Shown here one piece after another: positions 9,927 through 34,905 of a DNA stretch of 64,000 nt (the first letter of the stretch is position 1; every line of letters starts with the position of its first letter). The notes beneath the pieces were generated by a model, which saw only the letters and a program-made list of their open reading frames with translations, did no database searches and was not told where the DNA came from. Where the stretch lies: contig JAGAPO010000022.1 in assembly GCA_017623215.1 (NCBI GenBank), positions 1-64,000 of the forward strand, read 5' to 3'. Source of the DNA: Lachnospiraceae bacterium. GTDB taxonomy: Bacteria > Bacillota > Clostridia > Lachnospirales > Lachnospiraceae. The position numbers were made by a program, and so were the translations under genes.

Positions 9927-9975
9927 AGACAATATTTGGAAATCAATAAATTACAAAAAAAAATTAAAAAAAGTG

Positions 9976-10004
9976 TTGACAATTCGACAACCCTATTATA
10001 TAAT
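9976..10004 (+). promoter_or_regulatory. Strong promoter of the tRNA operon
   Basis: Perfect consensus: TTGACA (9976-9981), 17 bases, TATAAT (9999-10004). It drives at least Pro, Gly, Arg and His tRNA genes. Confidence 0.9.
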
Positions 10005-22751: not shown

Positions 22752-25790
<3,039 letters not shown>

Positions 25791-25937: not shown

Positions 25938-28961
<3,024 letters not shown>

Positions 28962-29071: not shown

Positions 29072-29950
29072 TTAAAGCATTAATTTCGACTTGATCGTCC
29101 GAATATAATCCGATGGGGAACAATTCTCGTATTGCTTAAAGACTCGGCTGAAATAATGAATCGAAGAAAAACCAACCTGCATCGCAATCTCCGTCAGGTT
29201 AAAATTCCCTTCTCGCAGCAGGCGCTTTGCCTCGGTCAGACGGAGCTGATTCAGGTAGTTAATGATCGTGACTCCGTAGACAGAGCGGAAATGATTGCAC
29301 AAGCTGGTTTTGTTGGTATTGTACAGAAAGCATAGATCGTTCAGCGTTATCTTCTCTCTGAAATTCTCCGTGATGTAAGCGTGGATATCCTTGGTCTTTG
29401 AGGCAAGGGCATCGGTCAGGCTCGTCTGTGGGAGGGCAGGCAGGGAGACTTCACGGATCAGTTCAATAAAAAAGGTTTCCAGCTTCAGCTTGATCATCTG
29501 GTCAGAGCCGAAAAGGTATTCTTTGCGCTTTTTCATGTCCTTCAGATTTGGAATATCGTAGGGAGGGAGAAAGACATTGCGCCCTTCCCGGACGATATCA
29601 GAGAGAAGCCTCTGCAGAGGCTCGGACAGTGTGACCGGTGCCAGAGAAAATGCATCGAGGCGGGAGCTGTTACATTCGAAGCCGATGATGATGATATTGG
29701 GGGCGATATCGGACGGACAGGTAAGGGAATGCGTTTCTTCGGAGGTGTGGATAATCAGCTGATTCTTGTTCACAATTCCGGAATAATTGTTCGCTTTTAC
29801 ATAAATGTAGCCGTTATCAACATATACCAGTTCGCAAAAAGGGTGTTTATCTTCAAAGGTGTGGTATTGCCGGGTGAATTCAAAATAATGAATGTTGGCA
29901 ATACGCGTTACATCAATAACCGTTTCAAAGTCTTTCAATTCAAATTCCAT
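29072..29950 (-). CDS. AraC family transcriptional regulator
   Basis: A 292-residue regulator. The N-terminal half (about 1-160) is a cupin-like sensing region (HTFEDKHPFCELVYVDNGYIYVKAN). The C-terminal 100 residues form the double helix-turn-helix AraC domain (LNDLCFLYNTNKTSLCNHFRSVYG, then LTEIAMQVGFSSIHYFSRVFK). AraC proteins of this layout usually activate carbohydrate genes on sugar binding. It is divergent from the GH3 gene and faces the beta-galactosidases, so either may be the target. AGGAGTATCCGA precedes its ATG. Confidence 0.92.
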   Translation of the reverse strand: MEFELKDFETVIDVTRIANIHYFEFTRQYHTFEDKHPFCELVYVDNGYIYVKANNYSGIVNKNQLIIHTSEETHSLTCPSDIAPNIIIIGFECNSSRLDAFSLAPVTLSEPLQRLLSDIVREGRNVFLPPYDIPNLKDMKKRKEYLFGSDQMIKLKLETFFIELIREVSLPALPQTSLTDALASKTKDIHAYITENFREKITLNDLCFLYNTNKTSLCNHFRSVYGVTIINYLNQLRLTEAKRLLREGNFNLTEIAMQVGFSSIHYFSRVFKQYENCSPSDYIRTIKSKLML

Positions 29951-30041: not shown

Positions 30042-30161
30042 TATTCAAAAAAATTAATATTATGCAAAAACCGTTAAACATTAGCCAAAGACACGTGAAA
30101 GAAAAGCAGGTATAATGGAAGCATGAACGATAGGATCCTATCTTGAAGGGAGGAACTCAGT

Positions 30162-31766
30162 ATGAGTCTGGATATCGAAAAGCAGATCGCGCGCATGTCA
30201 TTAGATGAGCTTTGCGGACAGCTTCTGTGTTATGAGGTCAGCGCGTCCATGGAGCCGGAGAGATTCGAAGAATGTGTAAAGCGGACCATGCCGGGAGCGA
30301 TCTTTATTAATGGTCAGGAGAAAGAATTCATCAAGACCTATACGGATCTTGTAAATCGGTACACACCGGTGCCGGTTATTGTCGCGGCGGACGTAGAGAA
30401 TGGTCCGGGAAGCGCGCTGAGGGACGGGGTGCTGTATCCGAATGAGATGGCCTGGGGCGCCTGCGATGATGAAGCACTTATCGAGAGAGCGGGAGAGGTC
30501 TGCGCGAGAATATGCAGAAAAGCAGGAATCCACTGGACGTTTTCTCCGGTGGTGGATCTGAATTATAACCCGAACAATCCGGTTGTGAATATTCGCGCGA
30601 TTTCGGACAGCTCCGCGCAGGTGGGAAAAATTGCGTCTGCGTTTGTTCGCGGCCTGCAAAAGGAAGGGCTTTTAATGGCGGCCTGTAAGCATTTCCCGGG
30701 GGATGGAATGGATGATCGGAATCAGCATTTTTGTACGACGGTCAATCCGCTTTCCAGAGAAGAGTGGATGCGGACATATGGGGAAGTGTACAAACGGCTG
30801 ATCGAAAGTAACGTCGCATCGGTAATGAGCGCGCATATTGCGCTGCCGAGTTTTGAAGAGACAGGGGAATGCCTGCCTGCGACGCTCAGTGAATCCCTTC
30901 AAAGCGGACTGCTGAAACAGACGCTGGGATTTGAGGGGTGTGTCGTCTCGGATGCGATCTCCATGATTGGAATCAGCGCCGCAATCAAACGGGAGAAGCT
31001 GGCGGCAGAATTCGTGAGAACGGGAGGGGATGTTCTGCTGTTCGCACTTCCGGAGGATTTCGACTACCTGAAGAGCGCGGTTTTAGACGGAACGATATCC
31101 ATGGAACGGTTAAAAGACGCGGTTCGGAGAGTACTGACGCTGAAACAGAGAGCGAGGCTCTTTGAAAATCAGCAGGAGCTGGAGGCCGGCATCACAGGTG
31201 ATATGGACGCCCGGGCAATATCGGATGAAATCGGAGAAAAGAGTATTAAGATTGTGCGCAATCTGGAAAATCTGGTGCCGCTGACGCTCAAAAAGGGAGC
31301 CAGAATCCTGTTCGTGAATCTGCAGAAAAAGGCGGAGGATGGCTTTACCTATGTGCGCGGGCTTGAGACGCTTGAGCAGGAGCTTGTGAAGCGGGGCTTT
31401 GCGGTTACTGTGAAATATAATCCGGGGCATTACGAGCTTAAGGAAATCAAGGACAGCTATGATTGTATCCTGATTAATTGCAAGATAAGCAGCCAGGATT
31501 ATCCGGGCGGATCGCTTCGAATGGGGTGGGATCAGATGATGGCGTTCTGGCGCGGATACGTTCTGGAACATCCCTGCGTGATTTTCACGGCATTTGGGGA
31601 TCCATACAAGATCTATGAGGTGCCGTTCGTGAAGACATATATCAATGCATTTTCCTATTCGGAGAGTACGCAGAAGGGATTTGTAAAAGTGCTGCTGGGA
31701 GAAATACCGGAGACGGCAAAGAGTCCGGTCGGACTGGAGGGCTTTTTTGATAGGGAAGTAGGGTGA
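30162..31766 (+). CDS. Glycoside hydrolase family 3 enzyme (beta-N-acetylhexosaminidase-like)
   Basis: A 534-residue cytoplasmic GH3 protein. Domain 1 (about 1-340) is a TIM barrel with the NagZ-type catalytic loop KHFPGDGMDDRNQHF and the nucleophile Asp in CVVSDAISM. Domain 2 (about 370-520) is a reduced alpha/beta sandwich (LVPLTLKKGARILFVNL). NagZ enzymes remove N-acetylglucosamine from muropeptides or glycans, but similar GH3 proteins act on other beta-linked sugars. It starts the operon that continues with the M24-like, ASRT and creatininase-family genes, so a substrate linked to that pathway is possible. GGGAGG lies before the ATG. Confidence 0.85.
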   Translation: MSLDIEKQIARMSLDELCGQLLCYEVSASMEPERFEECVKRTMPGAIFINGQEKEFIKTYTDLVNRYTPVPVIVAADVENGPGSALRDGVLYPNEMAWGACDDEALIERAGEVCARICRKAGIHWTFSPVVDLNYNPNNPVVNIRAISDSSAQVGKIASAFVRGLQKEGLLMAACKHFPGDGMDDRNQHFCTTVNPLSREEWMRTYGEVYKRLIESNVASVMSAHIALPSFEETGECLPATLSESLQSGLLKQTLGFEGCVVSDAISMIGISAAIKREKLAAEFVRTGGDVLLFALPEDFDYLKSAVLDGTISMERLKDAVRRVLTLKQRARLFENQQELEAGITGDMDARAISDEIGEKSIKIVRNLENLVPLTLKKGARILFVNLQKKAEDGFTYVRGLETLEQELVKRGFAVTVKYNPGHYELKEIKDSYDCILINCKISSQDYPGGSLRMGWDQMMAFWRGYVLEHPCVIFTAFGDPYKIYEVPFVKTYINAFSYSESTQKGFVKVLLGEIPETAKSPVGLEGFFDREVG

Positions 31767-31830: not shown

Positions 31831-33006
31831 ATGGCGAACAGAATTTGTATTCCGGATTATGAGTACAAGGAGAGAATTGCAAAGGCGGCGAAGCTGATTC
31901 GGGAGAAAGGGTTGGATGTTATGCTGGTGTCCAGTACGGAGTCGGATTATGCCAATGCACGGTATTTCAGCGGGTTCTGGCCGTTGTTTGAGCGGGCGGG
32001 AGTTGTGATTTCGGCGGCGGGAGAGGCGGCTTTGTTGGTTGGGCCGGAATCGGCGCTGTTTGCGAAGGATTTTGGTAAGCTTGATAAGGTATTTGTGTTA
32101 AAGGAGTTCCGGGAATCGGCGGATCCGTCGTATCCGGAGCTGCATGCGGATACATTTGCGGATGTCTTTCAGGGGCTCGGTGTTACCGGGAAGAAGCTTA
32201 AGATAGGCCTCGGCAGCTATGTGGAGTGTACCCTGCCTATTTACGAAGGACTGCGTGACGCATATCCGGAGGCGGAGATTATAAAGTGCAGCGAGATTAT
32301 GGTTGAGCTGAGAAAGATCAAGAGCGGAAATGAGCTTGCCTGCATTCGGGAAGGCTTTCGCATTATTGAAGCGGCGACGGACGAGGTGATCCGTAAATTA
32401 AAGCCGGGCGTCACAGAGCTGCAGATGGTTGGTATTGCACAGCAGGTTATATACGAGGAAGGCGCGGAGTACGAGGGGCTGCCGATGTATGTATTCAGCG
32501 AGAAGTCGACCAGTCACGCAATCAGCCGTTCACGGTACAGAACGATCAACAGGGGGGATATTGTTCAGCTGAATCTTTCCGCAAAGGTTGACGGATATTC
32601 GCCGTCCATCGGGCTTCCGGTTGTCATGGGTAAGCTTGAGGGAGAGCGAAGAAGGCTGGTTGAGTTCTGCCTGCAGGCCCATAACTGGACGGTTGACCGC
32701 ATCAAGGCCGGTGTGATCGCAAGCGATATTGCAAAGGATTTTTACAAGCTATACGAAGAGAACGGGCTGAAGGATAATTTTGTATACGGCCCCTGCCACG
32801 GTACCGGAATGATCGAGGTGGAAGCGCCCTGGATGGAGACGATCAGCGATTATCCGTTAGAGGAAAATATGACGTTCCAGGTTGATACCTTTATTTCGGG
32901 TCCTACCTTCGGTGCGAGATGGGAGAAGGGAATTGTGGTAACGAAGGAGGGCTGCCGCTCGATGACGGATTATCTGAAGAAGGGAATTATTGAAATTGAT
33001 GTGTGA
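31831..33006 (+). CDS. M24-family 'pita-bread' protein lacking metal ligands (creatinase-like)
   Basis: A 391-residue protein with the M24 creatinase/aminopeptidase architecture: an N-terminal creatinase domain (about 10-150) and a C-terminal pita-bread domain. The two metal-binding Asp of peptidases are replaced: GDIVQLNLSAKV has Asn and GYSPSIG has Ser. His is kept in CHGTGMIEVEAPW, but the TIEPG Glu position reads QVDTF. Creatinase itself lacks metals in this way, so an amidinohydrolase or a non-catalytic role is more likely than an aminopeptidase. AGGAAGGG precedes ATG 31831. The next gene overlaps its stop. Confidence 0.82.
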   Translation: MANRICIPDYEYKERIAKAAKLIREKGLDVMLVSSTESDYANARYFSGFWPLFERAGVVISAAGEAALLVGPESALFAKDFGKLDKVFVLKEFRESADPSYPELHADTFADVFQGLGVTGKKLKIGLGSYVECTLPIYEGLRDAYPEAEIIKCSEIMVELRKIKSGNELACIREGFRIIEAATDEVIRKLKPGVTELQMVGIAQQVIYEEGAEYEGLPMYVFSEKSTSHAISRSRYRTINRGDIVQLNLSAKVDGYSPSIGLPVVMGKLEGERRRLVEFCLQAHNWTVDRIKAGVIASDIAKDFYKLYEENGLKDNFVYGPCHGTGMIEVEAPWMETISDYPLEENMTFQVDTFISGPTFGARWEKGIVVTKEGCRSMTDYLKKGIIEIDV

Positions 33007-33370
33007 TGGAGTTGGGAAAAAGACATGGCTGATTCCGGACTGCGAGCTTCCCAGGGAAGGGGAAGGAATCTTAAAAGGGCATGAGTCGGTTATTATTGTA
33101 AATGACAGCGACTCAGACGCCAGAATTCAGGTTACGCTTTACTTTACTGACGAAGAGCGGGACAACGGAATTGAGTGGATTGTGAAAAAAGGGCGGGTTC
33201 GCTGCTTTCGGATGAATAACCCGGAGGATATGGGCGGACGCAGAATTCCTTATGATACACAATATGCGATGAAGCTGGTATCAAGCTGCAATATTGTTGT
33301 ACAGTACGGGAGGCTGGATAACCGGCAGACCAATCTGGCATACTATACGACGCTTGGGTATTCGGAATAA
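32999..33370 (+). CDS. ASRT-family protein (Anabaena sensory rhodopsin transducer superfamily)
   Basis: A 123-residue protein matching the ASRT beta-sandwich family: GKKTWLIPDCELPR at the start, GHESVIIVNDSDSDARIQV, then RVRCFRMNNPEDMG, IPYDTQYAMKL and VVQYGRLDNRQTNLAYYTT at the end. The founding member binds a sensory rhodopsin, but most members lie in bacteria without rhodopsin, beside sugar or small-molecule enzymes, and have been proposed to be ligand-binding domains. The ATG at 32999 overlaps the upstream stop at 33004-33006, and an alternative TTG is at 32990. Translational coupling with its neighbours suggests a shared substrate. Confidence 0.85.
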   Translation: MCDGVGKKTWLIPDCELPREGEGILKGHESVIIVNDSDSDARIQVTLYFTDEERDNGIEWIVKKGRVRCFRMNNPEDMGGRRIPYDTQYAMKLVSSCNIVVQYGRLDNRQTNLAYYTTLGYSE

Positions 33371-33437
33371 CGGTAAGATTTATGCTTTTCTGCTCTTTAA
33401 AGCGAGCAGGAAAGGAAGAGGAAAGGCAGGGATCAGA

Positions 33438-34172
33438 ATGTATCTGGATATGTGTTTTCCGAGGGAAATAGAGGCTGCGAAAGAGAACAATACGCCGGTC
33501 GTGATTGTAGGAGGGACCGTGGAATATCACGGTCCGCAATGCTCCTATGGGTGTGATACGCTGGTGGCGCAGGGGCTGGTTGAGCGGCTGGCGCAGAAAA
33601 AGGATATTATAATTGCGCCCTCGATCAGCTACAGCCCTGCGAGCTACGCGGTTGGCGGCGAGACGAGCGGAACGGTTCATGTGGAAGAAAATGCATTTGA
33701 GCAGTATGTGTATTATGTATTTATGAGCATGCTCTCCGCAGGTCTGCGGAATATCTATGTCGTGATTCACCATCAGTATGAGCAGGAGTCGCTGATGCCG
33801 ATGACGCTGTGTTACATGAAGGCGGCGAAGCGGGCGACCATGGCGTATCTGGAAAAGACCAGAGGACAGGGCTGGTGGGGAAGCGAAGCCTATCAGGACT
33901 ATTATGCAAATCTTGAGACAAGCGACAACCCGTTTGGCTGGATTAAGGTAATTCCCACAATGAATACAGCGGTTCAGAACGCGACCGGCTATGATCACGC
34001 GGGAAAATACGAGTGCTCCATTCTGATGGCGCTGTATCCGGAAGCGGTCAGGCCGGAACGTCTCGGAGAGCGGGCACACTGGTTCACGAAGAGCGCCGCG
34101 GAGGCGAACAAAGAGCTTGGGGAAGAGATGGTGCGGCTGGCGCTTGAATACTTGGAAAGAACGATTCTATAA
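33438..34172 (+). CDS. Creatininase/creatinine amidohydrolase family protein
   Basis: A 244-residue member of the creatininase superfamily, metal-dependent amidohydrolases that open lactam rings or cleave formamides. The metal-binding N-terminal motif is VEYHGPQCSYGCDT with Glu, His and Asp; a second region, HAGKYECSILMAL, supplies the C-terminal Glu. The usual GHGGN loop reads IHHQYEQ. Its substrate is unknown, but adjacency to a creatinase-like M24 protein and an ASRT protein suggests a guanidine, lactam or related small molecule. ATG 33438 is preceded by GCAGGGATCAGA. It ends the operon. Confidence 0.85.
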   Translation: MYLDMCFPREIEAAKENNTPVVIVGGTVEYHGPQCSYGCDTLVAQGLVERLAQKKDIIIAPSISYSPASYAVGGETSGTVHVEENAFEQYVYYVFMSMLSAGLRNIYVVIHHQYEQESLMPMTLCYMKAAKRATMAYLEKTRGQGWWGSEAYQDYYANLETSDNPFGWIKVIPTMNTAVQNATGYDHAGKYECSILMALYPEAVRPERLGERAHWFTKSAAEANKELGEEMVRLALEYLERTIL

Positions 34173-34720: not shown

Positions 34721-34905
34721 TCAGACCAATCAAAGGACCCTCTGACAAGCTTGCTTGATCAGAGGGTCCTTTGATTGGTCTGAAGGAGCGAAGCGACCCG
34801 GGAAAACCGAAGGTTTTGCCGGGCTCCGCCCGTCCGTGAGGAAAGACCGGCCGAAGTACGCTGACAAGCTTGCTTGATCAGAGGGTCCTTTGATTGGTCT
34901 GAAGG
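34721..34905 (+). repeat. Perfect 25-bp inverted repeat plus a second 45-bp copy of one arm
   Basis: TCAGACCAATCAAAGGACCC and five further bases (34721-34745) are the exact reverse complement of 34759-34783; the 13-base centre itself contains CAAGC/GCTTG, so the whole forms a hairpin of about 30 base pairs. The 45 bases 34742-34786 recur without change at 34861-34905. Between them lies a GC-rich stretch with a second hairpin (ACCGAAGGT core). There is no coding frame. It could be a MITE-like insertion or a structured leader before the membrane-cdaA operon. Confidence 0.85.

Follow-up and report, generated by a model that had tools for sequence, protein, structure and literature searches.

The window, by which we mean the whole 64-kb stretch of DNA analysed here, carries at 31831-34172 three overlapping or adjacent genes for an M24/creatinase-fold protein (M24 in the following), a stand-alone ASRT protein and a creatininase-family hydrolase (CRN), an arrangement that the original prediction had described and that the open reading frame positions and Pfam matches bear out (Table 1). 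The GH3 enzyme that it placed ahead of this trio is likewise recovered through its GH3 N-terminal domain. The unit is larger than the three genes, including also the GH3 gene, a tandem direct-repeat operator and a divergently oriented gene for an AraC-family regulator. The ATG start codon of ASRT (32999) lies within the 3' end of the M24 gene, overlapping it by 8 bp up to the M24 stop, and CRN starts with an ATG at 33438 after a gap of 67 bp from the ASRT stop. No transporter adjoins the operon in the window, and an Rfam scan of the region from 20 to 42 kb yielded zero matches. In the host genome (3.3 Mb) ASRT and CRN each occur once and no further M24 protein of the trio type was found; its two other M24 proteins share 24-25% identity with that of the operon. 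Downstream of CRN, at 34721-34905, lies a 25-nt inverted repeat whose arms match perfectly, accompanied by an exact direct copy of 45 nt located 119 bp beyond it; by its appearance this may be a small mobile element or else a strong hairpin.

Table 1. Genes and control elements of the operon, with positions in the window.
Feature	Position	Strand	Basis
AraC-family regulator	29072..29950	-	divergent; HTH_18 E=1.8e-20 (Pfam)
Tandem direct-repeat operator, probable AraC site	30053..30094	+	left-out matrix score 30.3
Sigma-70-like promoter AAGACA-17-TATAAT	30088..30116	+	consensus scan
GH3 enzyme, operon gene 1	30162..31766	+	Pfam GH3 N-terminal domain E=2.3e-60
M24/creatinase-fold protein	31831..33006	+	Peptidase_M24 E=1.4e-27 and Creatinase_N E=2.7e-11 (Pfam)
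ASRT (stand-alone ASRAH-domain) protein	32999..33370	+	Pfam ASRT E=9e-31; GHESVIIVN motif
Creatininase-family hydrolase (CRN)	33438..34172	+	Pfam Creatininase E=2.2e-28

Conservation of the trio

An M24 alignment, run against 84,980 species genomes, gave 300 relatives, the best-scoring 80 of which were kept as loci, chosen on M24 alone and not on ASRT or CRN. Among these best 80 of 300, ASRT was present at 70 loci, CRN at 73 and both at 65. Where M24 and ASRT reading frames adjoin, 47 of 80 such pairs overlap. As a conserved unit the trio is real: the survey for recurrence suggested in the original prediction finds all three genes together at 65 of the 80 loci in other genomes, and chance proximity was dropped as an explanation. 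The 80 loci share ancestry and are top scorers, and so do not represent 80 independent events. ASRT is missing at ten loci and CRN at seven, so neither is strictly needed everywhere. Nearly all loci come from metagenome genomes of Clostridia/Oscillospiraceae, most of them drafts, whose titles name mostly goat, deer, buffalo, sheep, yak and similar guts; the Pfam neighbour counts given below rest on reading frames obtained by simple calling rules.

ASRT was found in 14 of 299 genomes of the same family, with ASRT, M24 and CRN in that order at four of their loci, and other loci in this survey pair ASRT with an M24. When 391 genomes of the class were searched from the side of ASRT, the 30 best-scoring loci were without M24, whereas at 40 lower-scoring loci M24 lay beside ASRT in 36 and CRN was also present in 19. 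A search of a plasmid collection gave no trio (best M24 matches about 27% identical, two weak matches for CRN), and a phylum-wide CRN search of 299 genomes gave, beyond the host, six weak generic creatininase-family matches only. We found no earlier description of the M24-ASRT-CRN unit in the open-access papers searched.

Operator and regulation

The operator family has the consensus TTTACGATTGTGCAAAAA-N3-TTnACGATTnTGTAAATACAA, a tandem direct repeat with a 21-bp period, and was located upstream at 66 of the 80 loci, immediately before M24 in 61 of them. A first strict pattern missed the site in the window because this copy has more than three mismatches to it. A matrix built without the window sequence, however, scored it at 30.3 bits in a scan of the 64 kb, with no other site above 8 and, on five shuffles, nothing above 4. 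Searching the 3.3-Mb host genome with a loose pattern returned a single match, upstream of the GH3 gene of this operon. The right half of the operator overlaps the -35 element of the AAGACA-17-TATAAT promoter, a pattern that on its own is no better than chance but whose placement relative to the operator recurs across loci. Since the operator stands ahead of GH3 in the window and the GH3 genes of two other loci (L046 and L047) carry copies of their own, GH3 probably belongs to the regulon. An AraC homologue is encoded at 54 of the 80 trio-type loci, and from its position and the type of repeat the AraC-family regulator is a candidate for the protein binding the operator.

Further operator copies precede a GHL6 glycosidase-like gene and a DUF4838 gene. 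In one genome that also has the trio, a trio-type operator (L231, 6120-6161) lies upstream of a gene for a secreted SLH/GH16-domain protein, with DUF4838, amidohydrolase and glucosamine-6-phosphate-isomerase-family genes nearby. At L232 a second copy (9935-9976) is found upstream of a GHL6-family gene adjoining bacterial-microcompartment-like genes (named by eye).

Predicted properties of the three proteins

In the M24 columns that hold the metal ligands D, D, H, E and E, all 81 proteins compared have N248, S/A259 (Ser in 42, Ala in 39), H323, D352 and E365, and in the alignment of the window protein with the Pyrococcus prolidase 1PV9 the two Asp correspond to N248 and S259. All five ligands are kept in the controls, i.e., the two other M24 proteins of the host and two Xaa-Pro peptidases, while a bona fide creatinase has N, A, H, E and E at these columns. 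The proposal that both metal Asp are replaced as in creatinase thus stands, and the finding named in the original prediction as speaking against it, a metal-binding M24 peptidase, is contradicted by the sequences: as both metal Asp are absent in 81 of 81 proteins, M24 is not a normal metallopeptidase by this measure. Among ASRT-linked M24 proteins taken more broadly, a single distant M24 is the only one that keeps the Asp pair.

The AlphaFold model of M24 (pLDDT 93) has the pita-bread fold, which is also that of its Foldseek matches, creatinase 7yto (TM 0.83/0.81), prolidases and DoeA. With creatinase (7yto/1chm) the operon protein shares this fold, the change of the first Asp to Asn and of the second to Ala (Ser/Ala in M24), and the retained His and last Glu; it differs in its low identity (21%), in its sugar-operon context and in two features of the pocket. 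Glu262, which binds the guanidinium group in creatinase structures, corresponds to an invariant Gly261, making guanidino chemistry unlikely for M24. H229, which is invariant together with N248, H323, D352 and E365, is placed two residues off the catalytic His232 of creatinase in alignments, i.e., in another column, so that their equivalence is at best putative; the assignment of H229 as a proven catalytic His was dropped. Ectoine hydrolase DoeA/EutD (6twj/6twk) is also an M24-fold small-molecule hydrolase without the canonical metal site (TM about 0.77), but unlike the M24 of the trio it additionally loses the His; M24 scores 45.4 bits against the DoeA model TIGR02993 (cut-off 613), and no ectoine genes were recognised near the operon. 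A 27%-identical M24 is encoded at L127 (6001-7158) in a Leisingera cluster with TRAP-transporter and galactarate-dehydratase genes.

The assignment of the third gene to the creatininase family, made in the original prediction, agrees with its score against PF02633 (99.8 bits, curated cut-off 31.3) and with the Foldseek search of its model (pLDDT 89), in which the significant matches were creatininases only (TM about 0.7). Creatininase holds its binuclear metal centre with Glu34, His36, Asp45, His120 and Glu122. The near-invariant residues of CRN (E29, H31, D40, E115, H187 and E192) include equivalents of Glu34, His36, Asp45, Glu122, His178 and Glu183 of creatininase (1j2t/1q3k), so that four of the five metal ligands are kept, but His120 is replaced by Gln113, which is preceded by a conserved His111-His112; the partner genes also differ. 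CRN reaches 61.3 bits against the model of true creatininase (TIGR04448, equivalog cut-off 235) and 54.5 bits against that of IolN (NF041098, equivalog cut-off 245), and because it stays below the cut-off of every named subfamily that it matched we treat it as a subfamily of its own. IolN, by its NCBIfam name a 3-dehydro-scyllo-inosose hydrolase, is a creatininase-family enzyme of cyclitol catabolism, and a role of CRN in a sugar pathway would thus have a precedent.

The ASRT protein scores 106.8 bits against PF07100 (cut-off 25), its relatives including Anabaena ASRT (2ii7, E=1.3e-15) and TM1070 (1nc7, E=1e-8). In a published analysis (PMC2739507) stand-alone ASRT proteins have been proposed as sugar sensors, and the His and Cys of an SHExxCxxN motif touch the ligand in TM1070; the sections consulted make no mention of M24 or CRN partners. 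The window protein resembles these sensors in W10, H28 and N35 and in its linkage to sugar genes, but reads GHESVIIVN at the motif, the His and Asn being kept as in all surveyed ASRTs of both classes, and Ile/Val taking the place of the Cys in its class. This Cys is present in 0 of 105 M24-linked ASRTs (GHESVI[IV]VN or similar) and in 31 of 36 ASRTs without M24 (SHEA[VI]CVLN), so that the two classes probably bind different ligands. Several of the ASRTs without M24 that were examined belong to L-rhamnose operons (with RhaA, a class II aldolase and an FGGY kinase at L210); the isomerase, kinase and aldolase genes found there are absent from the window. For Anabaena ASRT, DNA binding and looping with altered reporter expression have been reported (PMC8660804), and by analogy the window protein may have a role at DNA as well. 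Sinorhizobium meliloti and a haloarchaeon (L126 and L123) each have an oxidoreductase gene with an ASRT gene on either side.

Sugar context and proposed function

The closest solved relative of the window GH3 is the GH3 beta-glucoside phosphorylase BglX (5VQD; phmmer E=1.7e-80, residues 8-529), with which it shares a full-length match and the KHFPGDG..R.QH motif, a match in activity being a prediction; its relatives also include beta-N-acetylglucosaminidases. Sister operons contain LacI-type regulators, parts of sugar ABC transporters, a homologue of the L-rhamnose mutarotase RhaM, GH20-domain proteins and a hexapeptide acetyltransferase. For the main group, DUF4432 is seen among 18 scanned neighbours, together with various sugar genes (GH3, GH20, GH38, GH1, GH4, GFO/IDH/MocA, apiosidase-like and others), and rhamnosidase-like and polygalacturonase-like genes are found as well. 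The neighbouring glycosidases differ between loci and indicate no single sugar. At some ASRT-M24 loci (L174, L027, L204, L205 and L207-L209) a metal hydrolase of the PTE or M81 family stands in the place of CRN, as if creatininase, PTE and M81 were exchangeable there. Upstream in the window, at 22767-25790 and 25953-28961, lie tandem GH2 beta-galactosidase genes, the second of which has one in-frame TGA (27615-27617) in an otherwise open frame.

The reading that we prefer, at somewhat less than even confidence, is that of an AraC-controlled, inducible sugar- or glycoside-catabolic operon: CRN and M24 would hydrolyse a compound derived from a sugar, be it an amide, a lactam or another carbonyl compound, and ASRT would bind it. 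From the genes, the conserved unit, the operator sequence, the residue patterns and the context, which are directly seen, we infer the enzymatic activity, the order of the steps and the identity of the ligand. In these gut Clostridia, with AraC divergent from the operator and GH3, M24, ASRT and CRN following on its other side, a small glycoside would be taken into the cell and GH3 would free its sugar part, perhaps by phosphorolysis. An intermediate that derives from a sugar and contains an amide, lactam or comparable carbonyl bond would then be opened or cleaved sequentially by the predicted metal-dependent CRN and the metal-free M24, and ASRT would bind this intermediate as a carrier or sensor, its ligand presumably being the same molecule that CRN and M24 hydrolyse. 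The substrate is probably neither creatine or creatinine nor free L-rhamnose. Of the guanidino, lactam or sugar-linked compounds considered in the original prediction, the sugar-linked one gains from the neighbouring genes and a lactam is possible, while the guanidino one loses ground through Gly261 and the low subfamily scores.

That M24 is an ordinary Xaa-Pro metallopeptidase in a cluster for peptide use would fit its resemblance to prolidases in sequence and fold; with the metal Asp pair gone in every member and intact in the two controls from its own genome, this was dropped as extremely improbable. Degradation of a guanidino compound, with CRN opening the ring of creatinine or a relative and M24 hydrolysing the product to urea, is suggested by the creatinase-like Asn at the first metal position and by a Paracoccus plasmid on which a creatinase gene (7yto match, E=1e-256) neighbours a creatininase gene, the same pair of folds. 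We regard it as very unlikely, given the distance of M24 from that creatinase, the Gly at the column of Glu262, the creatininase score of CRN far below cut-off, and neighbours that are sugar genes, among whose listed families no sarcosine or urea gene was recognised.

M24 could also be a catalytically dead binder or regulator acting with ASRT as a sugar sensor, leaving GH3 and CRN as the only enzymes. The metal site is indeed lost across ASRT-linked M24 subfamilies save the one distant protein, some of these proteins lack H229 too while keeping H323 and E365, and the effect of Anabaena ASRT on reporter expression would be in line with a regulatory role. But the polar pocket residues are very strongly conserved in 81 sequences, creatinase and DoeA are M24-fold enzymes without the metal site, and the operon has an AraC regulator of its own, so that we consider an inactive M24 unlikely. 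Rather unlikely, too, is an amino-sugar or sugar-amino-acid conjugate (an amide or lactam that might come, for example, from the cell wall or from glycation) whose C-N bonds are split by CRN and M24, which is a more specific form of the sugar-operon explanation. It would account for partner hydrolases of the amide/ester type (CRN, M81 or PTE, and an M20 beside one trio), for the beta-N-acetylglucosaminidases among the GH3 relatives and the recurring GH20-domain proteins, and for the operator copy before the GH16-domain protein, near amidohydrolase and glucosamine-6-phosphate-isomerase-family genes; DUF4432, GH38, GH1, rhamnosidase-like and polygalacturonase-like neighbours point elsewhere, however, and nitrogen in the substrate would be a deduction from context.

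Within the sugar-operon reading, it is possible, though on balance doubtful, that the unit represents a new route of gut Clostridia in which the metal-free, creatinase-fold M24 and the creatininase-fold metal hydrolase CRN work one after the other on an amide, lactam or conjugate of sugar origin that ASRT presents. The defined operator and the single-site regulon of the host make the inducer, and hence the substrate, directly testable. The public names of the relatives ("Xaa-Pro peptidase," "sensory rhodopsin transducer," "creatininase") would mislead here. The unit is repeated across many gut Clostridia that are uncultured, mainly those of ruminants and other herbivores, and joins in one regulated whole three orphans, namely the ligand of ASRT, the function of metal-free M24 proteins and the creatininases that do not act on creatinine. 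If the proposed route is true, the metal-free M24 proteins linked to ASRT, with creatininase, PTE or M81 as interchangeable metal-hydrolase partners, would make up a whole unrecognised class of sugar-processing enzymes.
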